This document shows positions 20,655 through 37,442 of a stretch of DNA of 64,000 nt, piece by piece. A program made the position numbers and the translations under genes. The stretch comes from Cupriavidus sp. P-10 (lineage in GTDB: Bacteria; Pseudomonadota; Gammaproteobacteria; Burkholderiales; Burkholderiaceae): contig NZ_AP025172.1 in the NCBI RefSeq assembly GCF_003402535.2, forward strand, positions 496,001 to 560,000, written 5' to 3'. The notes under the pieces were generated by a model that saw only the letters and a program-made list of their open reading frames with translations, was not told where the DNA came from and searched no databases. The number at the start of each line of letters is the position of its first letter. Within the stretch, counting starts at the first letter, position 1.

Positions 20655-20661
20655 GTTCGGC

Positions 20662-20883
20662 TTAGTGCTGAGATGCGATGCCGCAATCCTTGAAATCAAG
20701 CTCCCTTCGCTCGCGTGTGCGGCTCAGAATTAAGAGTACAGCCTCGTTCTCGAGGGCCATATGAACGCCAGCGGCGATGGCTTCGGCGCGAGTGGAATAT
20801 GTCGTCCGGTCTTCGCTTTCGTCGCCTTCGACCTTCCACTGCCCCTCATCCGCCGGAATTACTTGAACAGTCGCAACATTCAT
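20662..20883 (-). CDS. DUF2188-like small protein
   Basis: A 73-residue protein: MNVATVQVIPADEGQWKVEGD, then YSTRAEAIAAGVHMALENEAVLLIL, the W-V-(E)G…T-(K/R)AEA pattern of DUF2188. AGGAGCGAGGTGACAAA lies just before the ATG, a good ribosome binding site. The family is of unknown function and common in Burkholderiales accessory DNA. It may be co-transcribed with the small gene at 20436. Confidence 0.62.
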   Translation of the reverse strand: MNVATVQVIPADEGQWKVEGDESEDRTTYSTRAEAIAAGVHMALENEAVLLILSRTRERRELDFKDCGIASQH

Positions 20884-21266
20884 TTTGTCACCTCGCTCCT
20901 ACAGGTCCATAACTACGGTGTAGAAGCCTTTCGCGACTACGGCTGTCGGGTGCCTTCTTACTTTCGTGAATCACGATGGCAAAAGTGGGGAAGCAAGCGC
21001 GCAAACCTACGGAAAGAGTACTCTCGTCCGCCCGTACCGGTTCGGTATTGCAGGTCGCTATCCCTTGATGCTGCGCGGATCGTTGTCGAAAGAGTTGCGC
21101 TCTCGGATCTGCCCGTCCGGGCCGTGTGCGATGCCGCCTAGGTTGCCTCCGCGGCACTGCGAAGCGATATGCTCCGCACCGACAGTATTTCCAACCCGCA
21201 GTGGGGGGGCAGTTCTCCGGTCGGTAGGACTATCGTGAAGTCATGTTTTCAACATAGAGAGCGAAC
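20884..21266. other. Intergenic stretch, no supported gene
   Basis: About 380 bases upstream of the flavin oxidoreductase gene. Probably holds its promoter and that of the divergent DUF2188-like gene; no element could be defined. Open frames lack family character. Confidence 0.5.
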
Positions 21267-22241
21267 GTGAAGACACGTCTCACCGAGTTGCTGGGCATCC
21301 GGTATCCGATCGTCAAGGGCGGCATGCAGTGGATTGGTCGCGCCAGGCTCGCCGCTGCGGTATCCAACGCCGGCGCACTGGGTATGGTGACCGCGCGCAC
21401 CCAGGCCACGCCGGACGAGCTGCGACGCGAGATCGAGCGCACGCGCGAGCTGACTGGCAAGCCGTTCGGCGTGAACCTTACTCTGTCATTCGCCGCCAAG
21501 GGCGTGACTTACGACGACTGGGTGGCCGCCATCGTCGACAGCGGCGTGAAGATCGTCGAAACGGCAGGCAACAACCCGCGTCCCGTGATCGATGCGTTCA
21601 AGTCGGCGGGCGTCACCGTCATTCACAAGTGCACGTCGGTGCGGCACGCGCAGGCCGCAGAACGTCTGGGCGTGGACGTGATCTCGATCGATAGCTTTGA
21701 GGCCGCCGGTCATATCGGGGACGGCGATGTAGGCAGCATGGTCATGATTCCAGCGACCGTGCGGGCCGTGAAGATCCCGGTCATTGCCTCGGGCGGTATC
21801 TGGGGCGGGCGCGCCATGGCGGCGGCGCTCGTGTTGGGCGCCGAGGGTGTGAACGTCGGCACGCGCTTCACGCTCACCCAGGAATGCGACACCCACGAGA
21901 ACGTGAAGCAGACGCTGATCAAGGGCTCGGAACTCGACTCGATTCTGATCAAGCGGACGCTCGGCCATACCGCCCGCTACTTCCGTACGGTAGTCTCGGA
22001 CGAAGTGCTAGCGATGGAGCATCGCCCCGGTGGTGCGACCTACAAAGACCTCGCGCACTTGCTGGCGGGGCCACGCGGACGTCAGGCCCTGGAGTCCGGT
22101 GATATGACCGCCGGGCTGATCTGTGCCAGCCAGGCAGTCGCTCTGATCGACGACATCCCGACGTGCGAGGAACTGGTCGCGCGCATGGTGGCGGAGTGTC
22201 GCAGCGCCGTGCAGGCGTCGCTCGGCCGGTTCGCCGCCTGA
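21267..22241 (+). CDS. NAD(P)H-dependent flavin oxidoreductase (nitronate monooxygenase family)
   Basis: A 324-residue FMN TIM-barrel protein: LLGIRYPIVKGGMQWIGRARLAAAVSNAGALGM at the N-terminus, GVNLTL, GVKIVETAGNNP, VISIDSFEAAGHIGDG with the family's His, and IPVIASGGIWGGRAMAAALVLGAEGVNVGTRF for phosphate binding. It belongs with nitronate monooxygenases / 2-nitropropane dioxygenases, though such genes beside acyl-CoA enzymes may instead reduce enoyl compounds. The start is a GTG at 21267. It is 13 bases from the enoyl-CoA hydratase gene, so the two form an operon. Confidence 0.9.
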   Translation: MKTRLTELLGIRYPIVKGGMQWIGRARLAAAVSNAGALGMVTARTQATPDELRREIERTRELTGKPFGVNLTLSFAAKGVTYDDWVAAIVDSGVKIVETAGNNPRPVIDAFKSAGVTVIHKCTSVRHAQAAERLGVDVISIDSFEAAGHIGDGDVGSMVMIPATVRAVKIPVIASGGIWGGRAMAAALVLGAEGVNVGTRFTLTQECDTHENVKQTLIKGSELDSILIKRTLGHTARYFRTVVSDEVLAMEHRPGGATYKDLAHLLAGPRGRQALESGDMTAGLICASQAVALIDDIPTCEELVARMVAECRSAVQASLGRFAA

Positions 22242-22254
22242 GGAGGACCACGAT

Positions 22255-23091
22255 ATGCAATCAGAAATCATCACCTTGCGCGAGTCGCGGCTCGACATCA
22301 GGGACGGCATCGCGGAGTTCACGCATACACAGCCACGGCGGCGCAATCCACTGTCTCTGGCGTTGCGCGAGGACTACATGGATATGCTTGACTATGTGGA
22401 AGGCGACGCAAGCATCCGCGCGCTGATCATCACCGGCGCGGACGGCGTGTTCAGCGCGGGAGGCGACCTCCGGGGCATGAAGGACCGCGTCGACAACCCG
22501 CAGGCCCCGCAGAACATGCCAGACGCGACGCGTCGCCGCGTGCTCGTGCTGCACCAGTGGGTCAGCCGGCTTCGTGACCTGCAGGTTCCCGTCATCGCCG
22601 CTGTGGACGGTCCCGCCGTGGGTGCCGGCATGGGTCTGGCACTTGTTGCGGATTTCGTGCTCGCATCGTCCTGCGCGTTTTTTGGCATGTCGTTCGCCAA
22701 GGTCGGCATGGTTCCGGACATGGCCGCCGCGTATTTTCTGCCGCGCGTGGTCGGCATGGCGACGGCCAAGGACATGATGCTGACCGCGCGCCGCATCAGC
22801 GTCGAGGAGGCAAAGAACGTGGGCATCGTGCATTCCATCTATCCGCCCGAGACGCTGATGGAGCAGGCCCGGCAGTTTGCGCGGCGCTTCCTTGATGGCC
22901 CTGGCCCGACCCTCGGAATGACCAAGCGCATGCTCAACAGCGCCTTCGAGTCGTCCTACGCCGCGTTCGTCGAACTCGAATCCAATGCACAGGCCGTGGC
23001 CACCACCACGCCGTTCCACAGGGACGCGCTGCAGCGCTTCATTGCCGGTGAGCCGGGGCGCTTCGACTGGGACCGCGTCGCAGCAAAATAG
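22255..23091 (+). CDS. Enoyl-CoA hydratase/isomerase family protein
   Basis: A 278-residue crotonase-fold protein. The oxyanion-hole sequence is FSAGGDLRGMKDR and the second is VIAAVDGPAVGAGMGLALVADFVLA; MSFAKVGMVPDMAAAYFLPRVVG carries the catalytic-region pattern. Members hydrate, isomerise or cleave acyl-CoAs. A strong GAGGAGG site precedes the ATG. Operon partner: the upstream flavin oxidoreductase. The specific acyl-CoA cannot be deduced. Confidence 0.9.
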   Translation: MQSEIITLRESRLDIRDGIAEFTHTQPRRRNPLSLALREDYMDMLDYVEGDASIRALIITGADGVFSAGGDLRGMKDRVDNPQAPQNMPDATRRRVLVLHQWVSRLRDLQVPVIAAVDGPAVGAGMGLALVADFVLASSCAFFGMSFAKVGMVPDMAAAYFLPRVVGMATAKDMMLTARRISVEEAKNVGIVHSIYPPETLMEQARQFARRFLDGPGPTLGMTKRMLNSAFESSYAAFVELESNAQAVATTTPFHRDALQRFIAGEPGRFDWDRVAAK

Positions 23092-23970: not shown

Positions 23971-24771
23971 TCACCGGGCCTTGCGCTCCCAGCTCATTGC
24001 CCACCCATAAAGGGCAATGCATCCGAATACAATCATCGTAGGGCCGAACACAAAGGACAACAGCGGCATCATCAACAATGAACAGCACGATAGTAGGTAC
24101 ACATGCAACGTCATCTGCAGCGGCACAGCGAGCACGACAAAGGCGATGCTCAGCACCGTGAGAAAGGCTTTCTTGGACCAAGAAAAATCGAAAATGTAAT
24201 AGACGAGCGCATGCCCCCAAGGCAGCAGCAGCAAGAACCCGGCGGAAGTTTTGATACCGTTGTCAACATAGCCGCTCACCGTGTACGGGAAGCTCTGCGG
24301 CGCTACTGCGAAGTACAGCAGGGCCGTGACCTGGATGAATACCGCGAATAGCAGGAAATACCGAAGAGGTAGGTACTGATCATTTATGCGCGGCACCAGC
24401 ACGCCGGCGGCGAGCGTGATGACAAACGTCGCCAACCACGTCTGTGAATCCGGCGCGTTAACGGCGACATCCAGGTAGGGCAGGGTGACGTCGAACCACA
24501 CGAGCGGCGTGGTGCGTTCGACGACCGTGCCATCGATGTGCAACTTGTCGAGCCAGAAGGCTAGCACCTTGGCCCAACTGGCGCTCAGGCGGTCGCTGAG
24601 CCCCCATTCGGCCAGATTGAATGCCACGGGCACCAGTAAGATGCCAACAAGCGTTGACCGGGACAGCGTCAGGCGATCCCGCGACCGGTGTCTGGCCAGG
24701 GCCAATACCGAAAGTCCGAGTGCGTCGCTCTTGTCCGGGGCAGGTTTCGCGTCACCAGGATCGTGTGCCAT
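23971..24771 (-). CDS. Polytopic membrane protein of the exopolysaccharide cluster
   Basis: A 266-residue protein with about six or seven transmembrane segments (for example STLVGILLVPVAFNLAEWG, YFLLFAVFIQVTALLYFAVA, TSAGFLLLLPWGHALVYYIF, AFLTVLSIAFVVLAVPLQM). The start ATG at 24771 is two bases beyond the stop of the YaiO-like gene, so the pair is tightly coupled. The family is not recognised. Position suggests a membrane partner of the polysaccharide synthase or an exporter part. It is the last gene of the eight-gene leftward cluster. Confidence 0.75.
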   Translation of the reverse strand: MAHDPGDAKPAPDKSDALGLSVLALARHRSRDRLTLSRSTLVGILLVPVAFNLAEWGLSDRLSASWAKVLAFWLDKLHIDGTVVERTTPLVWFDVTLPYLDVAVNAPDSQTWLATFVITLAAGVLVPRINDQYLPLRYFLLFAVFIQVTALLYFAVAPQSFPYTVSGYVDNGIKTSAGFLLLLPWGHALVYYIFDFSWSKKAFLTVLSIAFVVLAVPLQMTLHVYLLSCCSLLMMPLLSFVFGPTMIVFGCIALYGWAMSWERKAR

Positions 24772-24773
24772 GG

Positions 24774-25607
24774 CTAGAACTCGACGAAGAATCCTATCTC
24801 TGCCTGCTTGCGCTTGTAAGACGGGTTGTCGTAGTACACGGCGCGCAGGTTCATGCCGTAGCGCTTGGTGAACCATTTGCGCCAGTTTAGCGAGACCTCG
24901 TGGCTGGTGAAATCGCTCAGCAGCGACTGCTCGCCAGTCAGCTGGTAGGCTTCGCTGCCGCCGTCGTATTTCAGCGTAATGTACTGGTCCTTGTCGCGGC
25001 CATAGATGACGGCGATGATGCCGCGGTTGGAGCGGACATTGCCTGGATCGCTTCGATTCAGCCTTGCCCCGAGCTGGATGATCCACGGAGCGTCGAAGTA
25101 GTAGGTCAAACCGAGCAACAACGTCTTGTCCGTATAGACTTCCTTGGCCCGGTAATAGGTGAAGCCGACACTGGCCACCAGGTTCTTTTTTTCCAGTAGC
25201 TTGCGAAATAACGCGCCATCGAGCCGGAATTCCGGCAGGAAGAAGCCGCCCGCGCTAGTGCCGGCGCTCAGGAAGGCATACCAGTTCTCGTCAAAGGTGC
25301 GGGTGTAGCCAAGGCCGAAGAAGGTGCCCTGGTCATCGAAATGGCTCTGGTGGCTGATTTCACCGGTGACGTAGTCCTTGGGTGTCAAGTGCACGCCGCC
25401 GCGCAGGTACTGGTCATTCCAGTTGGCGTTGTTGCCGGTAAGGTTGGCATGGCCAATCCCGCCTTCCACGAACCCCGTGAGCAAGGGAACGAAGGTCCGT
25501 GGCGGCGTGGCTTCAGCCTGCGCGCTCGCATCTGTCGCCGCTGACATTGCCAGCAGCCAGGCCAGCGCGTATGCGCCGGGCGTTCCGGTTTGCGAGAGCT
25601 TCACCAT
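24774..25607 (-). CDS. YaiO-like outer-membrane beta-barrel protein
   Basis: A 277-residue exported protein: signal peptide about 1-30 (YALAWLLAMSAATDASAQA), then alternating amphipathic strands rich in Tyr/Phe (LRGGVHLTPKDYVTGEISHQ, FFGLGYTRTFDENWYAFLSA, WIIQLGARLNRSD) and a terminal aromatic Phe (IGFFVEF). This is the YaiO/PgaA-barrel-like pattern. It could be the outer-membrane export port of the cluster, as PgaA or BcsC barrels are. ATG 25607 is preceded by AGGAT; MKKLL at 25682 is an alternative start. Confidence 0.78.
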   Translation of the reverse strand: MVKLSQTGTPGAYALAWLLAMSAATDASAQAEATPPRTFVPLLTGFVEGGIGHANLTGNNANWNDQYLRGGVHLTPKDYVTGEISHQSHFDDQGTFFGLGYTRTFDENWYAFLSAGTSAGGFFLPEFRLDGALFRKLLEKKNLVASVGFTYYRAKEVYTDKTLLLGLTYYFDAPWIIQLGARLNRSDPGNVRSNRGIIAVIYGRDKDQYITLKYDGGSEAYQLTGEQSLLSDFTSHEVSLNWRKWFTKRYGMNLRAVYYDNPSYKRKQAEIGFFVEF

Positions 25608-25790
25608 GCGTATCCTGTCGTTCCAGTCGATCGCGAGCGAAGGATCCTTCAGGACCCACCGGCCCGGTAACAGCTTTTTCACGATACACCGCTTCGCGGT
25701 CAGAAGTCGATGCCGAGTCCCTTGTGTTGCGCGACAGCACGCATGCTCAGCGTTCGCCAGCGCTCATCTCCACGACGCTCATGCCGCCGC

Positions 25791-26795
25791 TCAGCGGCAC
25801 CGCACGCCTGTCGGCGGCGGCGCCAGGGCCTGTTCAGGTGTCAGGCGTGCGTCGAACGCAAGGTACAGCGCTTCTTCCAGGGCATTCCAGTGGCTTCCGT
25901 GCCGGAACTGGATCGAGCGTGTCCTCCAGCATGCGATCGCGTCCTTGTCGTTCATCTTGTCGGCGACAAGGGCCACCAGTCCCCACGGGAAATCTACTTC
26001 AGACATCTGCAGCCATGTCATGCGGTTCTGCTTCATCCAGGCGCCGTACGCAGCAGCATGAGGGTGGCTGGTGGGCTGGATGTCGGCAAGGATGGGAAAT
26101 ATTTGCGCTACCGTGTCGGGATAGAACTCGGTCTGGTTGCGCGGCTGGGTACTGACCAGGTAGCCCCGGCTTGCGTGCCAGAATACCCTTAGGATGTCCT
26201 GGTCGAGGTGCTGGGCCTTGTGCATCCAGGCGGCGGCGCCCGCATTGTCCCCGAGGCGCTGGCGATAGCGGCCGGCTGCCTTGAAGGCGCTGGAGATCTC
26301 AACGTTGTCCATCAGCAACGCCACTGGGAGGGCAGCCGAGATGTGGTAGACACCGGTGCGCTTGTCGCGCAGCGTTTCCAGGTACTTGCTGGCCTTGTCG
26401 AAACTTCCCTGCCAGGCAGGCGGCAATCCCTGTGGCGGTGCCGACCGCACAAGCAGTTCCATCCATGCTGCCATCATGGCATCGTCGGCATCGGCGGGCT
26501 GGCAGGAAACGAGCCGCTGGGCCTTCATGCAATAGCGATCGAATCGGCCGTCGGTGTGCTGGTGCGGCAGCAGCCAGGCGATCCACCGGCCTGCGGCGGA
26601 TGTCGTGGACATGCCAGCGTCCTGGGCTGCCAGCAGTGCCTTGGATGCAAAATAGGGGTCGACGGAGTCGCCCTCAAAGTAGGTGGTGATCGCGCCGTCC
26701 GCGCGCTGGTAGCCCCGTAGCGACAGTTCGGCGCAGGTGGCCATCTGGTGGCACTGGGCAGTGAGCATTAGAAGCAGGACAAGCAAGGTTTTCAT
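25791..26795 (-). CDS. GH8-like periplasmic glycoside hydrolase
   Basis: A 334-residue exported protein: short signal peptide MKTLLVLLLMLTAQC (Cys at 15, possibly lipidated), then an (alpha/alpha)6-type helical repeat. YFEGDSVDPYFASKALLAAQ supplies an acidic residue where GH8 enzymes have the general acid. PADADDAMMAAWMELL resembles the DASDL…AW motif of BcsZ. In cellulose and related synthase systems such an enzyme trims the polymer in the periplasm. It sits between the YaiO-like and bactofilin-like genes. Catalysis is inferred, not certain. Confidence 0.68.
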   Translation of the reverse strand: MKTLLVLLLMLTAQCHQMATCAELSLRGYQRADGAITTYFEGDSVDPYFASKALLAAQDAGMSTTSAAGRWIAWLLPHQHTDGRFDRYCMKAQRLVSCQPADADDAMMAAWMELLVRSAPPQGLPPAWQGSFDKASKYLETLRDKRTGVYHISAALPVALLMDNVEISSAFKAAGRYRQRLGDNAGAAAWMHKAQHLDQDILRVFWHASRGYLVSTQPRNQTEFYPDTVAQIFPILADIQPTSHPHAAAYGAWMKQNRMTWLQMSEVDFPWGLVALVADKMNDKDAIACWRTRSIQFRHGSHWNALEEALYLAFDARLTPEQALAPPPTGVRCR

Positions 26796-26810
26796 GGTGT
26801 CGGAAGCGCA

Positions 26811-27899
26811 TCAATCGGTGGGTGCGACGCCCGTGGAAACGACCCGCCCTTCCTCCAGCGCGCAGACCGCGCCATGGATCACCGCGCCAACCTGCACCCG
26901 GAGTACCGGTGCCACGACAGTGGTCGGCTGCGCCGCGGCACCAATCACACTGTGCGCACTGACGGCGATCTCGCGCTCGGCCGCCATTGGCCCGGCGACG
27001 CTGCAGGTGTCGCCAACTGTGATTGCGTCGGCGGCGACCAGTGCGCCGTCGATGCGCACCTGCGCTTGCAGCCATATGCTGCCGCTGGCCTTGACGCTAC
27101 CTCCGATACGTGTACCCGTCCCGAGCCAAAGGTTGCCGTGCACCACCAGATCGCCCAGATACAGGCTGTCGGCCGGCAACCGGAGGTCGTGCGTGACGAG
27201 CCAGCGGCCATCGCGGGCCTCCGCCGGCTCAAGCGGGGTTGCAGAGGCCTCGCGTGGCGCCGGTTGCGCAGCGCCTTTCGTGCGGCTGTCTCCACCCCGT
27301 ATCGGCTCGGCCGGCCCGAACCGAATCACCGGTGCGCTCACCGAAGCAAAGCGGCAATCGTCGTCGATGTGGACGGCATGCAGTGCGCAAAGGGGGCCGA
27401 GCAGTTGGCATTGCGGCTCCACTCGCACGCTGCGCGCGTGCGCCCACCGGTTCAATTCGCTGCCCTCGCGCAGCACGATCACGCCATCCGACAGCAGTGC
27501 CTGGACCCGATTCTTACGCCCGGTGCAAATGCCGTCTTGGCCGAAGATATCGCGGGCAAAAGTATAGCCGTCAGGCAGCGACAGGGCACCACGGGCGACT
27601 AGGGTCTGCGCGCACACGCCTGTCGCGATCTGCGCCGCGGTCGGCTCGAAGGTGTTCGTCACATGTGCGACGGGCCGCAGCGAACTGACCGGATGCTCCA
27701 TGCCGCGTTGGAAAGAGAGATCGTCCTGGCGCTCAATCATGGAGCGGAACCCGGCCGCCACTGCAGCCACGTCCAAGGTGTGCTCACCATCGATGGGAAG
27801 TGGTCGGATGTCACGCCTGCGCCGCCATTCCAGTATTGCCGGCAACAGCGGCAGCATGAAGGTGAGCAAGGTCAGCGCGGCAAGCAGCAGGGGCCACAT
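26811..27899 (-). CDS. Membrane-anchored bactofilin-like (polymer-forming) protein
   Basis: A 362-residue protein. One N-terminal membrane segment (MWPLLLAALTLLTFMLPLLP, 2-22) precedes a basic stretch and a long domain. The C-terminal third is a right-handed beta-helix-type repeat of the bactofilin pattern (DSLYLGDLVVHGNLWLGTG, GGSVKASGSIWLQAQV, RIDGALVAADAITVGDTCS). It may form a scaffold for the synthase. The start ATG lies two bases after the stop of the glycosyltransferase gene. A bactofilin-like protein inside a polysaccharide operon is unusual. Confidence 0.75.
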   Translation of the reverse strand: MWPLLLAALTLLTFMLPLLPAILEWRRRRDIRPLPIDGEHTLDVAAVAAGFRSMIERQDDLSFQRGMEHPVSSLRPVAHVTNTFEPTAAQIATGVCAQTLVARGALSLPDGYTFARDIFGQDGICTGRKNRVQALLSDGVIVLREGSELNRWAHARSVRVEPQCQLLGPLCALHAVHIDDDCRFASVSAPVIRFGPAEPIRGGDSRTKGAAQPAPREASATPLEPAEARDGRWLVTHDLRLPADSLYLGDLVVHGNLWLGTGTRIGGSVKASGSIWLQAQVRIDGALVAADAITVGDTCSVAGPMAAEREIAVSAHSVIGAAAQPTTVVAPVLRVQVGAVIHGAVCALEEGRVVSTGVAPTD

Positions 27900-27901
27900 G
27901 T

Positions 27902-29476
27902 TCAACTCCGCTGTCGATAGCGGATAGTCTTGTCCCAACGCAGTTCGCGGCGCAGCAGGTAGTCAAAGACGATCTGGTCCACAATTGCGCGCGACACGGC
28001 GAGGACGCTTACCAGGAAGCCAAAATAGTTCAGCGGCAGCAGGCGGATGCGCTCGCGGCTGCCATCCAGATACACGGCCGCTGCGATCTCGAAGAAGGCG
28101 GCGAAATTGCCAAGCGTGCCGTATGACATCAGCGCGAACAGCAGCACAGCTGTACCTAGCAGCGGCAGGCCGCCAGCATAGAACAGCAGAATCGCCAACA
28201 GCCAGCCAAACAGCATCAGCGGCGCCATCATATAGATGCCAAGGAGCGCGACACCGTCGAGCTTTTCCAGCAGGCCGTGGTGCCGACACGTCGCCATCCT
28301 CCACCCATGGCGATAGAGCGCCTGGTTGTGCCCCTTAGTCCAGCGCATGATCTGCCGTACCCGCACGGGCCAAGTTTCCGGCACCTCTTCGTAGCACTCG
28401 GACCAGTTCTGGTACACCGTCTTCCAATCCGACAGCAGCAGCCGGTAGGTCAGGTCGGTGTCCTCGGCCAGCACGTCGTCGTGCCAGCCGCCGGCACTGT
28501 GCAATGCCCGCATCCGGATGCCCCCCACCGTGCCACCGTACTGGGGCACCAGGTTCAGATTCATCCGCGCCTGCTGGTCAACCTGGTAGCCGCCGGAGCG
28601 CTCCAGGTCGAGCAATCGCGTCAGCAGGTTGCTGCCAAGGTTCATCGGCACTACGCGGCCCATCGTCGCACCGACCTCAGGATCAAAGAAAGGTGCCACC
28701 AGTTGCTTCAACAGCGCTACTGGGGGCAGGTAGTCGGCATCGAACACGACGACGATCTCGCTAGCGACCTCTGCGCTTGCATCCTTCAACGCGGCCGCCT
28801 TCCCCGGCTTGCCGCCAGTGCGGTGGAACGGGGTGATGCGCCCGGGGTACTTGGCCACAAAGTCGTCGATGATCTCGCGCGTGCGATCGCTGGAGCGGTC
28901 ATTGACAGGCATAAGCGTGAGACGGTCGGTAGGGTAATCGGCACGCAACAGGCACTCCAGCGATCCCGCAATGACCGCCTCTTCGTTGTGCGCGGCGATC
29001 ATGACAGTCAGCGTCGGCCAGCACGCGATATCAATGTCAAGGTATGGGTGACGCTGCCTGCCAAGCAGGCGGTTGAGCGTAAATAGGTAATGCCGCACGG
29101 CATAGAACAGCACCAACCCCACGATCATCAGGAGCAGAGTGGTCAGGGCCGCCACGCTATCCAGCGTGCCATCGGGGGCTTGGCGCTGGAGAGTCGGCGT
29201 AGTCCAGCCATGCGGGCGCAAGGACGGCTCGGCAGACTCGGCGCCTTCCAGAGAGTCTGTTTGCACCATCGCAAGTGCCACAGTGGCATCGACAGGCTTG
29301 TCGGTGGTGCGTTCCGCGACGCTGGATAGGGCTCTCGCTGCGGCTTCGGGGGCGTTGGCTGCCTGCACAAGCGCGGTACCATGGCCGAGGAGGTCCATGG
29401 CCTGCACTTGCGAGGCGAGTACGACAAGGAAGAGTTTCCCACTAAGGGACAGCAGCAGCCGGTACGGTAGGCGCAT
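27902..29476 (-). CDS. Processive family-2 glycosyltransferase (polysaccharide synthase)
   Basis: A 524-residue membrane GT2. It has an N-terminal signal/TM segment (LLLSLSGKLFLVVLASQVQA), then a low-complexity region, a TM at about residue 130 (LTTLLLMIVGLVLFYAV), and the GT core: TVMIAAHNEEAVI, NDRSSDRTREI, VVFDADYLPPVALLKQ (DxD-type), EDTDLTYRL and QIMRWTKG (QxxRW, mark of processive synthases such as BcsA/PgaC). C-terminal TM helices complete the channel. No PilZ domain is visible. It probably polymerises a UDP-amino sugar; the upstream epimerase suggests UDP-ManNAc as a possible donor. Confidence 0.88.
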   Translation of the reverse strand: MRLPYRLLLSLSGKLFLVVLASQVQAMDLLGHGTALVQAANAPEAAARALSSVAERTTDKPVDATVALAMVQTDSLEGAESAEPSLRPHGWTTPTLQRQAPDGTLDSVAALTTLLLMIVGLVLFYAVRHYLFTLNRLLGRQRHPYLDIDIACWPTLTVMIAAHNEEAVIAGSLECLLRADYPTDRLTLMPVNDRSSDRTREIIDDFVAKYPGRITPFHRTGGKPGKAAALKDASAEVASEIVVVFDADYLPPVALLKQLVAPFFDPEVGATMGRVVPMNLGSNLLTRLLDLERSGGYQVDQQARMNLNLVPQYGGTVGGIRMRALHSAGGWHDDVLAEDTDLTYRLLLSDWKTVYQNWSECYEEVPETWPVRVRQIMRWTKGHNQALYRHGWRMATCRHHGLLEKLDGVALLGIYMMAPLMLFGWLLAILLFYAGGLPLLGTAVLLFALMSYGTLGNFAAFFEIAAAVYLDGSRERIRLLPLNYFGFLVSVLAVSRAIVDQIVFDYLLRRELRWDKTIRYRQRS

Positions 29477-29566
29477 GATTAGTTCCGCTAATGCGGGTTG
29501 GCACGTTCGCTTGTTGCCGATGCGCCGGCTGCGCACCCACCCCGGGGCGCGGCCGGCTCCTGCGCG

Positions 29567-31393
29567 CTATAACTTCCCGCTGACGAAAGCCAGGGAGGTG
29601 CCGCCCAGCGATGTGACGATCCAGTTGTTGGCATCCCAGGTCACGATGCCAAGGCCCTGCGTCACCACGGGCTGGGTATAGGCTGATCGGGGCAGCACCC
29701 AAGCCATATCGGTCAGATCGCTCGGATGGCTGGCCTGGATTGTCCAGGCATTGCCCATGTCGGTAGCCTGCCAGATGGTCTGCTGGCGCCTTTGGCTAAA
29801 CTGCGCGAGCGTGTCCATCGTGTACCAGCTGAAGCGCCCGAGCGAGGCCTGGGACGCAGCCCGGTTGAAGAGCGCACTAAGCACCGTCGGGTAGTCGACC
29901 GCTCCGAGCGGATGCATGTAGATCAGGCGGCTCGTTCGATTCTTGACCACGAAATCAATGAGCTGGCGATACCAGGCGGTGATGCTGGACGCTGGCACAT
30001 TGAATTCCTCGAACTCCTCAAATGTCGCATACTGGCCGAACGGCATCACCGGGAAGGCGCGAATGGTCTCGTTCGAGAGCGCGCCATTACGGTAGCTGCG
30101 AGTCGGTGCCATGCCCGTATGGCCAAGGAAGTAGTAGCCGTTGTTGCCATTGGCCTCGAGCCAATTGACAGACCATTGGGGCGTATTACCTTCCGGCGCG
30201 GCGTACTCCTTCGCAGCTTGCCCTGTCACGCCTTCAACGCTCTGCTTGTTCATCACCAGGTACTGCTCGAAGGTTGCCTGATTCCCCTCGCTGGCATTGC
30301 CGCCCCAGTAGTCATGGATCCATCCGCCATGACTACCCACCTTGTGTCCTTTGGACACAAGGTATTGAACGAGCTGCTGCGCCGTCGCATTCTGCGACAG
30401 GTTGATGCCTTTTGCATCGCCAAAGGTGATCTGGTCGGAACCAGCAGTTACGGAGATGGAGAAGGGGCCGTTGTTGAAGGTGCCCCAGCCCTTCATCTTA
30501 TTGGCGGGGGCGATCTGGTCTCCGGCGCAAAAATGCATGTTCAGCACCATTCCGCCGCGCGCCTTCGGTTGCGCAGAGAGCCGCGGCATCTTCATCAAGT
30601 TGCTTCCAAAGTAGCGCAGGAAACCGTGCATCAACATGCCGTCGGTCTGGCCCTTCAGGTAGGCGAGCGGCGTGTTGATAAACAGCACGCGGCCCGAGCC
30701 AAAGCTGCGCAGCCCTGCCACGAGTCCGAAGTTTGGTGACGTCAGCAGTGCCGTGCCGGTGTATGTGCCCTGCGTCACGAAACTCGGATAGATCAGAAAC
30801 CCATAGACGTATCCCGAGATGCCTTCCACGGGATCGGTGGTGGATGGGCTCCACACCATTGATTTGCCGGGCGGAACCTGGATGGTCCTAAGCGTGCTGC
30901 TCAGCCCGGTGACCGGCCCCAGGCCAATCATATTGCCGAGCAACTGGTCGTACAGTACGTAGTCGACCCCAGCAAGATTGCTTAGGCGGCTGCGCTGAGC
31001 AGCGTAAAAGCCGGTCGTGGTCAGTGCGCCGAAATCGTAGACTAGCATCAGGTTCCCGCCCTGGCTGGCGTAGGTCTCCAGCGCTGCGATCAGCGCGTCG
31101 CTGGCGTTGACGTGCACCTGATCCGGCAGGATCACGCCGGAGAACTGCGCGGTTGTCGTGCCTTGCTGGAACTGCGTGTCGTTGATGACGGTGATCTTCA
31201 AGCCTTCTTCCTGAGCCGCATCCAGCCAGGCCGAAACGCGCGGGTCAGGAAGAGCGAGTTCGTCGGGTATCAGCAGCGCGATCTGGTTGGTGGCGGCATG
31301 CGCTATGACCGGCAAAGTCAACGCCAGTGCCAGCAGAAACTGGATGACCAACAAACTGCTTCGCTGCAAGAGCGGATGAGATTTGCAGTGCAC
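29567..31393 (-). CDS. Exported polysaccharide-deacetylase-like protein with GATase-like N-terminal domain
   Basis: A 608-residue secreted protein: signal peptide about 1-34 (IQFLLALALTLPVIAHAA), then a class-I GATase-like Rossmann domain (NQIALLIPDELALPDPRV, GVILPDQVHVNASDALIAAL, GGNLMLVYDFGAL). The C-terminal half has NodB-type metal-site patterns: NMHFCAGDQ, GHKVGSHGGWIHDYW and APEGNTPQW. It likely de-N-acetylates the nascent polymer in the periplasm, as PgaB, PelA and IcaB do. It lies upstream of the synthase. The two-domain architecture differs from those proteins. Activity is inferred. Confidence 0.72.
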   Translation of the reverse strand: MHCKSHPLLQRSSLLVIQFLLALALTLPVIAHAATNQIALLIPDELALPDPRVSAWLDAAQEEGLKITVINDTQFQQGTTTAQFSGVILPDQVHVNASDALIAALETYASQGGNLMLVYDFGALTTTGFYAAQRSRLSNLAGVDYVLYDQLLGNMIGLGPVTGLSSTLRTIQVPPGKSMVWSPSTTDPVEGISGYVYGFLIYPSFVTQGTYTGTALLTSPNFGLVAGLRSFGSGRVLFINTPLAYLKGQTDGMLMHGFLRYFGSNLMKMPRLSAQPKARGGMVLNMHFCAGDQIAPANKMKGWGTFNNGPFSISVTAGSDQITFGDAKGINLSQNATAQQLVQYLVSKGHKVGSHGGWIHDYWGGNASEGNQATFEQYLVMNKQSVEGVTGQAAKEYAAPEGNTPQWSVNWLEANGNNGYYFLGHTGMAPTRSYRNGALSNETIRAFPVMPFGQYATFEEFEEFNVPASSITAWYRQLIDFVVKNRTSRLIYMHPLGAVDYPTVLSALFNRAASQASLGRFSWYTMDTLAQFSQRRQQTIWQATDMGNAWTIQASHPSDLTDMAWVLPRSAYTQPVVTQGLGIVTWDANNWIVTSLGGTSLAFVSGKL

Positions 31394-31500
31394 GATCTTC
31401 TCCCAGCGAGAGGATTGTCAGATTGCGGTACAGGGCCGAACGGCCAGCTGGCGCGTCATCGTCAAAGCGGAAGGGCTCGCCATCCGCACGTTCTGGAACA

Positions 31501-31869
31501 TCATTGGAGCTCCGCTTCCGCTGCGGGTGCGGGTGCGGGTGTATAAGCGCCGCTTTTTACCTTGGGCCCACTCACAGCAGTCTTTGGCTTCTTGGCTTTC
31601 GCCTTGTCCTTGATCGCCTTGTTCTTGCCCACGCTGTGCGCTTCGAACGCAAGATCCATCTGGAAGCTGTGATCGTAGCCTTTCAGGCCGCCGGGATTCG
31701 TCGGGCTTGCCGGAAGGTAGAGCGGGGGCGCTGAAGCGGCTGTAGCAGCTTCCTCGGTCAAGGCGGCGAGGGCATTGGCCGATGTCAGGATACTGGCGGC
31801 GAACAACGCTGCGGCCCCTGCTACAAGCCGAGCGTTAGTTGTCACCCATGCAATACGTGAATGATTCAT
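31501..31869 (-). CDS. Small exported basic protein of the exopolysaccharide cluster
   Basis: A 122-residue protein. Signal peptide about 1-35 (LVAGAAALFAASILTSANALA), then TEEAATAASAPPLYLPASP, a short conserved-looking core GLKGYDHSFQMDLAF, and a lysine-rich tail (KAIKDKAKAKKPKTAVSG) ending in Pro/Ala. No family was recognised. It sits between wecB and the deacetylase-like gene. A basic periplasmic protein could bind an acidic polymer or act as an assembly partner (speculative). ATG 31869 chosen because it opens the signal peptide. Confidence 0.62.
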   Translation of the reverse strand: MNHSRIAWVTTNARLVAGAAALFAASILTSANALAALTEEAATAASAPPLYLPASPTNPGGLKGYDHSFQMDLAFEAHSVGKNKAIKDKAKAKKPKTAVSGPKVKSGAYTPAPAPAAEAELQ

Positions 31870-31963
31870 TGCCTTGCTCCTGCAGAGAGCGTCCAGCGAG
31901 CCGCAGGCGTTGCGGCGTTCCGCTGGGCGCACTGGTATCACTTTGTTGACCATGGCCGGCTGC

Positions 31964-33148
31964 CTATGAACTCACAACCCCGCTAAGGTTTATCGTTTCG
32001 CCGCATCGCAGATCCGCCTGCTGGCGCTTGCCTTGTAGCGCTAACACAATGCGTTCGCTCGCTCGCCCGTCACCAAACGGGTTGTGCGCCCGCGACATGC
32101 AGGCGTACTCATCGGGATCGTTCAGCAGTTGCTCCGCTGCGGCGATGAGGCGCGCCGGGTCGGTACCGACAAGTCGGGCAGTACCAGCCGCGACGGCCTC
32201 CGGCCGTTCTGTGGTTTCCCGTGTCACCAGCACTGGCTTTCCCAACGCCGGCGCTTCTTCTTGGATTCCGCCTGAGTCAGTGACGATCAGGCAGGCACGG
32301 GACATCAGGAAGACAAAGGGAAGGTAGTCCTGAGGCTCTATCAGATGGATGTTTTGATGGCCTGTTAGCAGCGCCTGCACAGGCTCGCGCACCTGCGGAT
32401 TAAGGTGCACCGGATAGACGATTTGGATGTCGGGGTTGCGGTCCGCCAGCGTGCGCAACGCAGTGAACAGCCGCTTGAAGGGCGCCCCAAAGTTCTCTCG
32501 GCGATGCCCGGTCACCAGAATCAGGCGCCTGGAAGGATCAAGGAAAGGGTACCGGCCGGCGAGTTCGCGCTGCATCTCGACATCCGTGTCCAACCGGCGT
32601 TTGACCTGCAGCAGCGCATCGATCCCGGTATTGCCGGTTAGGCTGATGCGGCTCGGGTCGACGCCTTCGCGTAGCAGGGTTTCCTGCGCTTGCTGCGTCG
32701 GCGCGAAGTGCCACGCTGCCATCACGTCGGTGACACGGCGGTTCATCTCCTCGGGCCATGGTGCGCTGAGGTTTCCGGTGCGCAAGCCCGCTTCAACGTG
32801 CCCGACTGCCACGTTTCGATAAAACGCGGCGAGCGTGGCAGCAAGCGTGGTAGTCGTATCCCCATGCACCAGCATGGCATCCGGCAGAAACCGGTCCAGC
32901 ACCTCATGCACGCCGCTGAGTACTCGTGTGGTGATGTCGGCCAGAGTCTGACCTTGGCTGAGCACGTTAAGGTCGAAGTCCGGGACGATCCCAAACAGCC
33001 GAAGCACCTGGTCCAGCATATGGCGGTGCTGACCAGTCACGCATACACGCAACGTGAATCCGTCGGATGCTTGGAGGGAATGAATAAGCGGCGCCATCTT
33101 GATAGCTTCGGGCCGGGTCCCGAATACAGCGAGGATGTTCTTTGGCAT
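31964..33148 (-). CDS. wecB: UDP-N-acetylglucosamine 2-epimerase
   Basis: A 394-residue non-hydrolysing epimerase: [19 protein letters not shown] at the N-terminus, [27 protein letters not shown], and the UDP-binding [18 protein letters not shown] with [16 protein letters not shown]. It interconverts UDP-GlcNAc and UDP-ManNAc in the cytoplasm. As first gene of the leftward polysaccharide cluster it would supply UDP-ManNAc to the synthase, or link to another surface glycan. Start ATG 33148, about 110 bases ahead of the next gene. Confidence 0.92.
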
Positions 33149-33792
33149 GTCAGTCTCTCGTCTTGCTGTTGGGTGCCAGACGGTCGCGGTCGAAGTTTGG
33201 GCCGCGGGCCTGCCGCATTAAGCGCTGGTGTGTTTCATCGCGCGGGGAAACGGATAGCGATGGCTGTGCCACCCGTGGGCAATTCCTGAATTCATGCGGG
33301 TTCTAGGACATTTGGACCTGAGCGACGGGGCCGCCTGTCATAAATGTGGTTGCAAAGCCGTAACAACGGCTTTTATTCGCGGCGTCCGTATGCTGGCGCA
33401 CAGATGTGGCTGCTACAGCACGATGCACCGCCGCAGCGCATGAAAGTGGATCATAGGGCGGTTGAGCGGCGGGATCGGCAAGCGCACTTTGCTGCGTGCG
33501 AAACGCAACCCTTCTAGTGAGGGTGCTTCACATTAGGGACTTCGATGCACAGGGGAAAGCGGTCTTTTAGGTCGCAAACAGCGGGACTGTTGCAGGACGA
33601 GAGACCGAAATAGCCAAAAGGCTTAAGACAAAAGGGGGGAAAGTAAGCACTTGACGCAGTTGGTTTGGTCACGGCACCCATCCATTCGAGGGAAGGGATC
33701 ACCCGAATGTGCGCATGCGGCAATCAACCGAATCGGTTTCACGAATGAAAAGGTGTCTATATTAGATATAAATAAAAATTAATCGCAATAAT
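33149..33792. other. Upstream region of the exopolysaccharide cluster; one hairpin
   Basis: About 640 bases without a supported gene; it must hold the cluster promoter, which I could not define. A perfect 7-bp hairpin, AAGCCGT-AACA-ACGGCTT (33355-33372), is followed by TTA on the plus strand and could be a weak terminator. An open frame at 33514-33723 (minus) lacks coding character. Confidence 0.45.
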
Positions 33793-34131
33793 ATGCAAGC
33801 AATACAAGTATCCGCACGCAAGAAGAAACGAGCGGATCGCACCGCCGAAGAGTTGCGCGCCGAACTGGCGGCGCGCAGCGGGGCCCGCGACGCGGCCGAG
33901 GCGCAGGCCGAAGTCCGCGCCCGGATTGAGGCGCAGTCCGCGGCGGTCGCCGATCGGCTCGCCAGCGCCGAGCAGCGCAGTGGAAAGCGGTGCACACGTG
34001 GACACGGTGCAGGCGGAGTTGGGCGACCGCAACGCCGAGGGGCAGAGCTGGGACGGGCAGGGCGAGATGCCCGCCTAGCTGCGGCGGGCGGTCAATGCAG
34101 GGCAATCGGTGGAGTTCGCCGCATCGGATAG
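33793..34131 (+). CDS. Possible short coiled-coil protein or relic
   Basis: The first 65 residues are Ala/Glu/Arg-rich and would form a coiled coil (RTAEELRAELAARSGARDAAEAQAEVRARIEAQ), like plasmid KfrA-type or phage structural fragments. After about residue 65 the composition turns to Gly/Arg, while another frame reads HVDTVQAELGDRNAEGQSW. This suggests a frameshifted remnant. No clear ribosome binding site. Confidence 0.25.
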   Translation: MQAIQVSARKKKRADRTAEELRAELAARSGARDAAEAQAEVRARIEAQSAAVADRLASAEQRSGKRCTRGHGAGGVGRPQRRGAELGRAGRDARLAAAGGQCRAIGGVRRIG

Positions 34132-34223
34132 CTTCGACAGCGGATAAGCTTGGATCTCGTCTGTGTCGCGGGGCGGTGGCGGCAAAGCGCCCATTAAAAT
34201 ACATTACAATGCACTAAATTTGT

Positions 34224-34242
34224 CATCAAATGATGCTATAAT
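34224..34242 (+). promoter_or_regulatory. vapBC promoter -10 and adjacent palindrome
   Basis: CATCA-AA-TGATG (34224-34235) is a short palindrome immediately before TATAAT (34237-34242), 25 bases upstream of the vapB ATG. This placement is typical of toxin-antitoxin autoregulatory operators bound by the antitoxin complex. Confidence 0.5.
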
Positions 34243-34266
34243 TTGTGCATACTTACGGAGATTTCC

Positions 34267-34464
34267 ATGCGTACGACTATTGCGCTTGATGACGACTTGA
34301 TCGCCAAGGCTCAAGCCTATACGGGCCTGGAGGAGAAAACGGCACTCGTGCGCGAAGCACTAAAGGCCTTGATCCAGCGTGAAGCCGCGAAACGACTCGC
34401 GAATCTTGGCGGTAGCCAACCGGGCATCAAGGGGGCACCGCGTCGCCGGCAGGACATCGAATGA
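34267..34464 (+). CDS. vapB: VapB-type antitoxin
   Basis: A 65-residue type II antitoxin of the VapB (DUF2191-like) type: MRTTIALDDDLIAKAQAYTG forms the ribbon-helix-helix DNA-binding part, LEEKTALVREALKALIQREAAKRL the helical part, and GGSQPGIKGAPRRRQDIE the toxin-wrapping tail. Overlaps vapC by four bases (ATGA). Expected to repress its own promoter together with VapC. Confidence 0.88.
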   Translation: MRTTIALDDDLIAKAQAYTGLEEKTALVREALKALIQREAAKRLANLGGSQPGIKGAPRRRQDIE

Positions 34465-34832
34465 TTCTGGTCGACACGTCGGTCTGGATTGACCACATCA
34501 ACGCTTCTGATCCTATGCTGATTAGCCTGCTTGCCGAGGAGCGTGTGCTGGCTCATCCCTATGTGATAGGCGAGATTTCGCTCGGTAGTCTGCGTGACCG
34601 TGACGTCGTGCTTGGCGCGTTGCTCGATCTGCCACGCGCGCCAGTTGCGACGCCGGAGGAGACGTTTTATTTGATCGAGCGCGAAGGGTTGTTCAATCGT
34701 GGAATAGGATATATCGACACGTCACTCCTGGCGTCCGCGCGCCTACAACCAGGCATCACCATCTGGACGCACGACAAGCGATTGAAGAAGGTTGCCGATG
34801 AACTTAATCTCGGCGCGGTGCTTGCGCACTAG
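34461..34832 (+). CDS. vapC: VapC-type PIN-domain toxin
   Basis: A 123-residue PIN-domain ribonuclease: MILVDTSVWIDHIN with Asp5, Glu38 (YVIGEISLG), GYIDTSLLASARL and ITIWTHDKRLKKVADEL give the acidic Mg-binding residues. VapC toxins cleave tRNA or rRNA. Full length for the family and translationally coupled to vapB, so it appears intact. The module sits at the edge of the mobile-element region. Confidence 0.9.
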   Translation: MILVDTSVWIDHINASDPMLISLLAEERVLAHPYVIGEISLGSLRDRDVVLGALLDLPRAPVATPEETFYLIEREGLFNRGIGYIDTSLLASARLQPGITIWTHDKRLKKVADELNLGAVLAH

Positions 34833-34923
34833 ATAAACAGTCTGGCGCGCTGGTCACTGCATTGCCTGAATTTCTGGAGGGTCACCCTTTTCGGCCAGAC
34901 CTTGCGGCATGTCGAAGCGGCGC

Positions 34924-35172
34924 CTACGACTCCAGAATCTCCAGCCCGTTTTCGGCACACCATTGCCTCAGAGCTCTTTCGACAGAGTCGGCTTCAAAGG
35001 AATACCAGATTTCGAGAATGCCTTCGCGCTCCACCAGATCCTTAAAGCGCGCGTAAGCCCCTTGCCGGCGGAAGAATTCTTCAACTTGATCGTAACGCTC
35101 AGGCAACTCTTGTGCGACAAATTGGAGGGCGAGACGTCTTCCGGAAAATACCCATACGGGGCTTTGGCTCAT
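34924..35172 (-). CDS. UPF0158-like small protein (short version)
   Basis: An 82-residue protein whose second half YARFKDLVEREGILEIWYSFEADSVERALRQWCAENGLEI matches the C-terminal pattern of UPF0158 proteins, which are usually about 140-150 residues. It may therefore be an N-terminally shortened copy. No good ribosome binding site precedes the ATG at 35172. The upstream small frameshifted gene (35227-35386) is on the same strand and may have been its operon partner. Function unknown. Confidence 0.55.
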   Translation of the reverse strand: MSQSPVWVFSGRRLALQFVAQELPERYDQVEEFFRRQGAYARFKDLVEREGILEIWYSFEADSVERALRQWCAENGLEILES

Positions 35173-35226
35173 TGGAGGGATTTCGCCATAACGCTGCGCA
35201 CGAGCGGTCCTTTTTCTGTTGTCGGA

Positions 35227-35386
35227 TTATGCAAGGTTAAGCGTAGCGAACAGATCGGACAGGGGCTTCAGAGCCAAGCGGACCTCGTCACCTGTCAAGC
35301 GTTCTTGGCGCAAATTGCGATTTTTCTTGGCAACTCCCAGCTTGCGATAGGTGTATTGCTCATCGAATTTTTTTCAGTAAGTCCAT
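35227..35386 (-). pseudogene. Small 53-codon gene with a frameshift in an A7 run
   Basis: AGGGGAG lies before the ATG at 35386. The frame starts MDLLKK, but seven A residues instead of six shift it into a stop. Reading past the run one frame over gives FDEQYTYRKLGVAKKNRN, LRQERLTGDEVRLALKPLSD and LFATLNLA, then TAA at 35227. The downstream reading is clearly protein-like. Either a one-base insertion inactivated it or the A7 run is a slippage site. Family not recognised. Confidence 0.5.
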
Positions 35387-35412
35387 TTCTCCCCTAAGCT
35401 CCGGCTTTGGGG

Positions 35413-35486
35413 GGGCTCTAGCACATGCCTGGTTAGAGCAGCGGACCTAATCCGTTGATGCCGCGTCCGACTCACGGCGCCCACCA
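35413..35486 (+). pseudogene. Decayed tRNA gene (Arg-CCU-like), possible old attachment site
   Basis: The stretch folds roughly as a tRNA. The 5' acceptor GGGCTCT pairs imperfectly with GGCGCCC before ACCA at 35483-35486. The D-loop CTGGTTA-GAGC is intact. The anticodon arm GCGGA-CCTAA-TCCGT has a five-base loop that would be CTCCTAA if two bases were restored. The T-arm GTCCGACTC has a mutated GTTCGA. These defects make it non-functional. It lies between the small toxin-antitoxin genes and the mobile-element stack. Confidence 0.55.
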
Positions 35487-35661
35487 TAAAGCCGCGAGAT
35501 CTTCAGTCACACCGTTCTGCGAAATCCGCCTCGGCCCCAGGGACCGTGACCAGACACGGCACTAAACGATGCCGCTGCCATTCTTCAAGAGAATGAATAC
35601 CTTGCAGGCCGTCGATGGAGTGCGTATAAGTCAATAGTGATCAAAAAAATTGGAGGCAAAA

Positions 35662-35979
35662 ATGGCAACGTATCAGCAACTACTGGAGCAAAAGGAAGCT
35701 TTGGAAGCGCGGATCGCAGAGGCGCGTTCGACTGAGGTCGCTGGTGTTATCGAACAGATCCGCGAATTGATGATTCGGTATAATCTCTCGCCCGAAGATG
35801 TGGCGCCTCGGCGTCGTCGCGGCCGGCCTGCCGGTGCAGCATCCGCTGGCACGGAGAAAACTCCGCTGCCGCCAAAGTACATGGATCCCAAGACCGGAAA
35901 AACCTGGTCGGGTCGCGGCCGGACGCCGGCGTGGCTGGGCAAGCGGCCCGAGCGTTTCCTTATCGAGCAGGTTGAATGA
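35662..35979 (+). CDS. H-NS-family nucleoid protein
   Basis: A 105-residue protein: N-terminal coiled-coil oligomerisation region (YQQLLEQKEALEARIAEARSTEVAGVIEQIRELM) and C-terminal AT-hook-like DNA-binding motif KTGKTWSGRGRTPAWLGK, with a basic linker RRRRGRPAG. ATG 35662 follows TTGGAGGCAAAA. Such accessory H-NS copies are common on Burkholderiales islands and plasmids and silence foreign AT-rich DNA. Confidence 0.92.
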   Translation: MATYQQLLEQKEALEARIAEARSTEVAGVIEQIRELMIRYNLSPEDVAPRRRRGRPAGAASAGTEKTPLPPKYMDPKTGKTWSGRGRTPAWLGKRPERFLIEQVE

Positions 35980-36051
35980 CACGCGCCGGAGCCGTTGACG
36001 ACTACGGCAGGTCCGTCATGAAGCCGGCCCATCTCTGAGTGATCGGCGCGC

Positions 36052-36088
36052 AAAAAGGGCGGCTCTCGAGCCGGTAGCAGAGAGCCGC
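36052..36088 (-). terminator. Minus-strand intrinsic terminator
   Basis: Perfect 9-bp stem GCGGCTCTC (36059-36067) / GAGAGCCGC (36080-36088) with a 12-base loop. Read on the minus strand it is followed by CCTTTTTG. It would stop leftward transcripts, for example from the CcdA relic at 36378. Confidence 0.6.
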
Positions 36089-36315
36089 GGAACGTCCATA
36101 AAGAAATCGGGTAATGGATACGTTACCCGTTCTCAGTATGACCCCGTCGCCCTTGCTAGGCAATGGACCTGCCCAATGAGTTCTCCTCCGCGCGGACTCA
36201 CCAAAAAAGTGCCCGCATGCCGAGGGACGGTGAATGCGGGCGGTAGCAGGACTGCCCCGATATCATAGGGTCCGATAAGCAAGCTCTAAATCTGAATTAA
36301 AGCCGCTTTCGCCCC

Positions 36316-36378
36316 TCAGTCAGCGGGCAACGTCATGTTAGTGGCCTTGCGCGGGCGGGCTTCGACTGTTTGACCCAT
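36316..36378 (-). pseudogene. Relic of a CcdA-type antitoxin start
   Basis: ACGGAGGTAGCT precedes an ATG at 36378. The 20 codons MGQTVEARPRKATNMTLPAD then stop at TGA. RKATNxTLPAD is the conserved N-terminal motif of CcdA-family antitoxins (about 75-80 residues), so the rest and any ccdB toxin are missing. The strong ribosome binding site shows it was a functional start once. Confidence 0.5.
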
Positions 36379-36757
36379 AGCTACCTCCGTATGGTCATTT
36401 TGCGCATGATAGCCTTATGACAGTGCGCAAGCCATGTCGGCGTGCGTCATCGGGAGCTATGCCGACGTGATTCCTGAGCCTGTCTCGTACGGTCCCAGTT
36501 TGGCGCGGTCTCCCTGGCACCACGGAACATCCCGCTTAGGCAGTCCGCAGCGAAGCAGGAACCTGAGTTGCGAAGCTCAGGAATCCCCTTCCTTTCCGGC
36601 ATTCGCCGGCGCCGCAAGGCGAGTGAGGGGAGATGGAATGAACACCGCCCGCCAGTAGCGCTAGCGGGGTTCCACGATGAGGGGCTATCGCTTGACCGAC
36701 GGCATCGATGTGCCAAAGTGAAGATCCGAACCATCACTTGAGGTAAGGAGAGCCCAA
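36379..36757. other. Intergenic stretch before the IS110/IS1111 start
   Basis: About 380 bases. The right part (about 36660-36757) should contain the left end of the IS110/IS1111-type element and its ribosome binding site (AGGTAAGGAG before the ATG at 36758). No gene is supported in the left part. Confidence 0.5.
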
Positions 36758-36803: not shown

Positions 36804-36845
36804 GTAAGCGCTAGTTTCTGCACACCTTGCGTGCGATGAACTTGT

Positions 36846-37421: not shown

Positions 37422-37422
37422 C

Positions 37423-37442
37423 GTATCTGGAGCTCCAGATAC
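37423..37442. repeat. Perfect 20-bp palindrome at the left RIT end
   Basis: The sequence GTATCTGGAGCTCCAGATAC is its own reverse complement. It lies between the IS66 flank and the left terminal repeat and has no counterpart at the right end, so the left end carries about 25 extra bases. It could be a recombinase site or a scar of an earlier event. Confidence 0.75.

Follow-up and report, generated by a model that had tools for sequence, protein, structure and literature searches.

A candidate synthase-dependent exopolysaccharide operon with a bactofilin-like gene in Cupriavidus sp. P-10 and other Burkholderiaceae

What might be produced by the eight genes that lie side by side at positions 23971–33148 of a stretch of DNA from Cupriavidus sp. 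P-10? The stretch, referred to here as the window, comprises 64,000 nucleotides (positions 496,001 to 560,000 of NZ_AP025172.1) and is part of contig C3 in a genome of 9.08 Mb and 5 contigs. An earlier note on the window described eight leftward genes in this interval, and indeed eight open frames, all on the minus strand, fill it with short gaps or overlaps. From the 5' end of the set, the genes encode a UDP-GlcNAc 2-epimerase (epi), a small exported protein (sml), a NodB-like protein (dac), a GT2 synthase (gt2), a bactofilin-like protein (bac), a hydrolase-like protein (hyd), a YaiO barrel (yaiO) and a polytopic protein (poly); the nearest named relatives of dac are from Cupriavidus. We consider it probable that the locus is an undescribed synthase-dependent exopolysaccharide operon, the product of which is an amino-sugar polymer.

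The genes are linked well beyond the window. We examined 31 loci bearing dac, of which 21 came from the first search and a further ten were drawn from this genome and others. All of them were picked for holding dac, and the figures therefore measure linkage and not frequency. The seven-gene core, which is the complete set but for sml, was found together in 27 of the 31, in Cupriavidus, Burkholderia and genomes assigned by inference to Ralstonia and Trinickia (hyd of L057 is 92% identical to a Ralstonia protein, and dac of L059 is 96% identical to a protein from a metagenome-assembled genome (MAG) of Trinickia). As for the remaining loci, L010 stops at a contig end, and in L062, L063 and L064 dac stands alone; the latter three genomes all have another dac adjoining gt2 and hyd. 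Further out, in the order- and class-level surveys, the core was complete in three of five loci (L121, L123 and L125) and dac was alone in L122 and L124. L121 is labelled gammaproteobacterial because its dac is 100% identical to a protein from a gammaproteobacterial MAG. The earlier note had named unlinked genes in relatives as the finding that would count against it; the neighbourhoods of both groups of loci point the other way.

Gene order varies around two fixed pairs. The order of the window, epi-sml-dac-gt2-bac-hyd-yaiO-poly, is that of Cupriavidus in general, and L121 has the same order without sml. The Ralstonia-type loci (L057 and L058) and L125 are arranged as epi-gt2-bac-hyd-dac-yaiO-poly, while the Burkholderia loci start with a divergent epi, followed by gt2-bac-yaiO-poly-dac-hyd and a glmS-like gene; in L060 epi is reversed and located at the far end. 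Throughout, gt2 and bac are adjacent in 33/33 loci with both, the bactofilin-like gene following the synthase gene, and yaiO and poly are adjacent in 32/32. Short frames were encountered for epi (260 codons in both L005 and L007, 195 in L012), gt2 (272 codons in L012) and dac (295 codons in L019), representing either interrupted genes or assembly errors.

Co-occurrence was followed in a survey of 299 genomes of the family (thresholds of E≤1e-20 for dac, E≤1e-100 for gt2 and E≤1e-20 for hyd). The dac gene was found in 32 genomes, gt2 in 34 (the same 32 plus G048 and G072) and hyd in 48 (those 34 plus 14 more). The confinement of dac to genomes with gt2 corresponds to a Fisher p of 5e-41 over the 299 genomes, related genomes not being independent. 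In one genome (G229) dac is located on a different contig from gt2 and hyd. Four of the 14 additional genomes with hyd contain loci (L126, L127, L128 and L131) with epi, hyd and a glmS-like gene from which the inner genes are gone; these seem to be reduced versions of the cluster. A search of a plasmid collection returned no match to dac.

The first part of the proposed pathway is precursor supply. The epi protein (31964–33148; this and all further coordinates on the minus strand unless flanks are discussed) matches TIGR00236 with 498.6 bits, well over the cut-off of 210.15, and PF02350 with 404.9 bits, in agreement with its earlier description as a UDP-GlcNAc 2-epimerase; it is of the non-hydrolysing WecB type and likely supplies UDP-ManNAc. 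The gene is present in all 27 full loci. Its versions in L123 and L129 are divergent (362 and 334 bits versus 570–800 in the ten further complete or almost complete loci that were scored) and still lie in the cluster. The whole genome of strain P-10 has two UDP-GlcNAc 2-epimerase genes, one in each of two copies of the cluster. In addition, a glmS-like gene adjoins all 12 Burkholderia loci of the first search (L014–L025), as well as L061, L065, four reduced loci and the C. pauculus locus L005, and is found in another orientation at L129; the copy at L018 passes TIGR01135. Since the epimerase belongs to the set and glmS is located next door in three lineages, an amino-sugar precursor route and product are favoured, and the polymer possibly contains N-acetylmannosamine (ManNAc). 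No match to a ManNAcA dehydrogenase model was obtained among the eight proteins in Pfam and NCBIfam scans.

The synthase itself (gt2, 27902–29536; start probably at 29476) matches PF13641 with 93.3 bits (cut-off 27). Residues D192, D245, D247, E337-D338, Q374, R377 and W378 are invariant in 12/12 rows of the alignment, so that the QxxRW-bearing GT2 synthase recognized earlier holds, and the protein displays the D, DxD, ED and QxxRW features of a processive membrane GT2, as expected for synthase-dependent systems in general. Among NCBIfam models, the nearest is PgaC_IcaA, at 108.7 bits versus a cut-off of 422.3, and the CelA model gives 45.4 bits versus 699.1. When compared by hhalign to four synthases of E. 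coli, gt2 aligned with PgaC (probability 99.6), YaiP (98.5), BcsA (98.1) and NfrB (78.8).

That PgaC ranks first in both comparisons is what speaks for a divergent Pga-like system, in which gt2 would make poly-N-acetylglucosamine (PNAG), dac would replace PgaB, and epi would serve some other need. However, the match is far below the PgaC_IcaA cut-off, none of the eight proteins matches PgaA or PgaD, and hhalign, a weak test in this case, detected no PgaB match. Furthermore, the epimerase gene accompanies every full locus and has no counterpart in the genome outside the two copies. A PNAG system of this kind thus appears unlikely. Less likely still is a ManNAc glycan system of the Nfr/NGR type that would have lost control by cyclic di-GMP (c-di-GMP) and gained modifying enzymes. 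The logic of the two systems does match, a WecB-type epimerase, a processive GT2 and an outer-membrane barrel being common to both (PMC8669472 and PMC8669469), and in Achromobacter xylosoxidans nfrA, nfrB and wecB are clustered with more exopolysaccharide genes (PMC8669472). Nevertheless, of the four E. coli synthases NfrB is the most distant from gt2, only 115 columns being aligned between the two; MshEN is unmatched; and NfrA, a 983-residue protein with tetratricopeptide repeats (TPR), is not matched by TIGR04390 at E≤0.1. An amino-sugar operon of its own kind remains the reading that we prefer.

The observation that PilZ and GGDEF genes are missing from the set also held: PilZ, GGDEF and MshEN models matched none of the eight proteins at E≤0.1. 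A crude scan for the GGDEF motif found none in the window and gave matches in two of the 42 fetched loci, L062 (a lone dac) and L129.

The constant companion of the synthase is bac (26811–27938; start perhaps at 27899), for which a membrane-anchored bactofilin-like protein had been proposed. The likeness is recurrent, as 13/13 members of the family match PF04519 at E up to 10 (best 2.3e-7), and the N-terminal segment is in place; the match of the window protein (19.7 bits) is below the curated cut-off of 27.9, and so is that of bac in the second copy. A whole-genome PF04519 search at E≤0.001 left the window bac unmatched and retrieved the second copy at 8.1e-4. Among solved structures, the bac profile matches the bactofilin A chain 2n3d (E 0.002), along with other beta-helix proteins. 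The protein has a single strong N-terminal hydrophobic segment followed by RRRR, and a weak second segment near the C-terminus. Because of these four arginines and the positive-inside rule, the beta-helix would be expected to sit in the cytoplasm, where bac might act as a scaffold or a switch. A bactofilin-like partner of the synthase could also suit a cell-attached structure (resembling a stalk, a holdfast or a spore coat) placed by bac, as opposed to slime, but with bac under the bactofilin cut-off and no further appendage gene recognized in the set or the window flank this explanation is very improbable.

The non-canonical NodB-like member is dac (29567–31393), an exported protein and putative polysaccharide deacetylase whose N-terminal part is GATase-like. 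Its PF01522 match (22.6 bits) is just below the cut-off of 23.1. At E up to 10, PF01522 was matched by 16 of 18 family members (best 8e-5) and the GATase-like PF08532 by 8 of 18 (best 0.003), all of them weak matches. Classical NodB enzymes carry TFDDG as their first motif. The corresponding motif of dac is L-N-W-H-x-[C/D], with the Asp-Asp pair absent, and the second motif has the spacing H-x4-H rather than H-x3-H. In the best 120 of 905 relatives, H287, H360 and H494 are invariant (120/120) and R432 nearly so (118/120), while position 289 is occupied by C in 96 and by D in 24. The Asp-Asp pair is used by CE18 enzymes (PMC7229062), and because it is absent dac was assigned to neither CE4 nor CE18. 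The protein may have another metal site, or may bind the chain without cleaving it. Of the GATase-NodB-like deacetylase proposed earlier, the two weak fold relationships are retained, and the deacetylase becomes a fold-level guess. Comparison of dac by hhalign with eight PelA-like proteins, PgaB and YaiS gave no match; these negatives weigh little, since the same method missed E. coli YaiO when set against the YaiO-type proteins of these loci, even though both match TIGR04390. The profiles of dac, hyd and poly had no useful match among solved structures. In L059, L060, L062, L063 and L064 a secreted protein gene adjoins dac; its product has no match in NCBIfam or Pfam and resembles a sedolisin-type serine peptidase.

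The neighbouring sml gene (31501–31953; start probably at 31869) was described as encoding a small exported basic protein, and its product does have a signal-like segment and an excess of basic residues (K+R 19 versus D+E 10), with no family match. In 95 of the 120 dac relatives an insert with a median of 120 residues is present where the window dac has 17; the 25 short-insert relatives (P0001–P0025) are from Cupriavidus where named, with one from Ralstonia. When 15 loci were scanned with a profile of the Cupriavidus sml proteins, the insert-bearing dac was matched in eight of them (best 1e-11); conversely, the dac profile matches the separate sml gene of the second copy at 1.9e-7. With a single sml sequence as the tblastn query, 5 of 12 Burkholderia loci matched at E≤0.001. 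The Ralstonia-type loci and L121, L122, L123 and L125 showed no sml match. The dac protein is also short in L057, L058 and L125, and in L121 it carries a long, diverged insert. Given the reciprocal profile matches, sml of Cupriavidus looks like a detached part of dac and is likely its partner, so that the earlier description stands for export and charge and is extended by this match to the NodB-like protein of relatives.

For hyd (25791–26795), the GH8-like reading had to be abandoned. Even at E up to 10 GH8 was matched by none of the 13 members, hhalign found no GH8 match, and the GH8 matches of the genome lie on C2, elsewhere than the cluster. Among the 120 hyd relatives listed, seven carry PF22422 (MGH1-like glycosidase), and six have 610–642 residues with CBM25, RGI_lyase or fn3 domains. 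One relative, P0169, which is 63% identical to the window hyd, matches PF22422 with 31.3 bits (cut-off 27) and has trehalase and rhamnosidase six-hairpin matches below the cut-offs; the window protein itself has just a weak TED match. A putative six-hairpin glycosidase is therefore suggested by the relatives, and hyd is likely a trimming enzyme.

The yaiO product (24774–25682) is a YaiO-like outer-membrane barrel, as described earlier: it matches TIGR04390 with 207.4 bits (cut-off 32) and PF19413 with 118.1 bits, E. coli YaiO itself scoring 182.4 bits to TIGR04390. It has no TPR match and is a putative exporter. The last gene, poly (23971–24771), encodes, as described earlier, a polytopic membrane protein; it has about five hydrophobic segments and no known family. 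Its start has moved, however: the open frame spans 23971–25086, and relatives put the start near 24771, removing a 313-base overlap with yaiO.

A second complete copy of the eight genes is located at C3:203345–212503 (L056:5346–14504), its dac being 81% identical to that of the window. In a tree of dac sequences (38 rows; L019, with a frame of 295 codons, omitted) the window copy has P0002 as its partner, whereas the second copy groups with L008. Because the two copies pair with different lineages, a recent duplication as their origin is unsupported. A galactose-oxidase-like gene (L056:2667–4694 and L008:16485–18509) adjoins the second copy and one of the nine Cupriavidus loci of the first search; it scores 146.9 bits against the GlxA model NF052501 (cut-off 800). 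In Streptomyces, GlxA works together with a GT2 glycan synthase.

Taken together, the gene content suggests a pathway. The genes, their families, the conserved linkage and the two fixed pairs were observed, whereas we infer substrate, polymer, enzyme activities, protein positions and the export and control roles alike. The epi protein would convert UDP-GlcNAc to UDP-ManNAc, and gt2, clustered or positioned by bac on the cytoplasmic face, would build an amino-sugar chain of ManNAc, GlcNAc or both across the inner membrane. In the periplasm dac would modify the chain, with a module that most relatives carry as an insert and that Cupriavidus encodes as a protein of its own; hyd would trim or clear the polymer, and the yaiO barrel and poly would serve export. 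A further step, which we put forward tentatively as possible and no firmer, is that the combination of a ManNAc-containing exopolysaccharide, a gt2 governed by bac instead of c-di-GMP, a dac whose metal site is new (His and Cys/Asp replacing the Asp-Asp pair) and export through a TPR-less YaiO barrel constitutes a distinct class, present in at least one gammaproteobacterium as well as in Cupriavidus, Burkholderia and the Ralstonia- and Trinickia-type genomes. Few synthase-dependent systems have been described, and several of these are switched by c-di-GMP. If true, the proposal would add a class in which control part and barrel both differ and the NodB-like enzyme is non-canonical; it would suggest what the YaiO family and membrane-anchored bactofilin-like proteins may do, and would imply an unrecognized surface or matrix glycan in many Burkholderiaceae.

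Several points weigh against the interpretation of the locus as an amino-sugar exopolysaccharide operon. The case is strong for linkage, moderate for function and weak for chemistry, and the polymer is a prediction from sequence. Deacetylase activity of dac is uncertain with the Asp-Asp pair missing, and H355, kept in 114 of the 120 relatives, is Gln in six. The hydrolase assignment of hyd is borrowed from relatives, and a TPR scaffold was not recognized among the eight proteins. No glmS gene was seen beside eight of the nine Cupriavidus loci of the first search, beside either copy here, beside L121 and L125, or beside the loci of Ralstonia and Trinickia type. L129 and L130 hold six genes, dac being absent at the site. 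The distribution is also patchy: besides being limited to 32 of 299 family genomes, dac was found in seven genomes of the same genus (this one included) versus at least 20 without it, and in five of 349 order-level and two of 369 class-level genomes, this genome being counted in each.

As to the surroundings, a promoter and terminator scan found fewer sites than in shuffled sequences. The left flank (window 16280–23091) looks catabolic, with matches to a TctC-type binding protein, M81/MlrC, nitronate monooxygenase and enoyl-CoA hydratase. To the right (33779–45000), inspection by eye noted a toxin-antitoxin-like pair (34243–34832), a transposase-like piece (36846–37406) and integrase-like genes (38226–41439), and the operon may adjoin a mobile region on this side.

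Among the titles and abstracts listed and the texts consulted, a literature search yielded no description of the gene set, which is not proof of absence, as most subscription papers fall outside its coverage. The psc1 cluster of Rubrivivax is a far larger and different cluster (PMC3684757), the operon survey of PMC7112194 covers cellulose, PNAG, alginate and Pel, and PMC7112168 covers Gram-positive Pel. The claim of a dedicated system that differs from Bcs, Pga, Pel, Alg and Ica thus gains from linkage, co-occurrence, family matches and the literature search, with its hydrolase, deacetylase and small-protein components reinterpreted and with Alg and Ica not compared directly.

How does the window set relate to the named systems? 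For Alg, no model appears among the NCBIfam matches of the eight proteins, no direct comparison having been made. In Pel, as in the window set, one locus unites the putative functions of a deacetylase and a hydrolase. Its glycosyltransferase, PelF, is a GT4 enzyme, whereas the window synthase is GT2, and hhalign found no PelA match (eight PelA-like proteins, a weak test). Bcs shares a processive GT2, a putative periplasmic hydrolase and an outer-membrane protein; however, gt2 is below the CelA cut-off, hyd is not GH8 by profile, and PilZ and BcsB are unmatched. With Pga and Ica the set has in common the synthase nearest to PgaC/IcaA, a NodB-fold protein and an outer-membrane barrel, but gt2 is below the PgaC cut-off, PgaA and PgaD are unmatched, the barrel is of the YaiO type with no match to a PgaA-type TPR porin, and epimerase, bactofilin-like and six-hairpin genes are added. 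The E. coli yaiO-yaiP-yaiS genes offer a barrel of the same family and a GT2 (YaiP); in contrast, YaiS is unmatched by dac, yaiX is broken by an insertion sequence as annotated, and the stretch shown has no epimerase. Finally, E. coli Nfr/NGR (NfrA, NfrB and WecB) resembles the window set in the UDP-GlcNAc 2-epimerase, proposed there to provide the precursor of a ManNAc polymer, the processive GT2 and the barrel (PMC8669469 and PMC8669472). The window set differs in having neither an MshEN match nor a TPR barrel, in a synthase that is distantly alike, and in the NodB-like, six-hairpin, bactofilin-like and polytopic parts that it adds.

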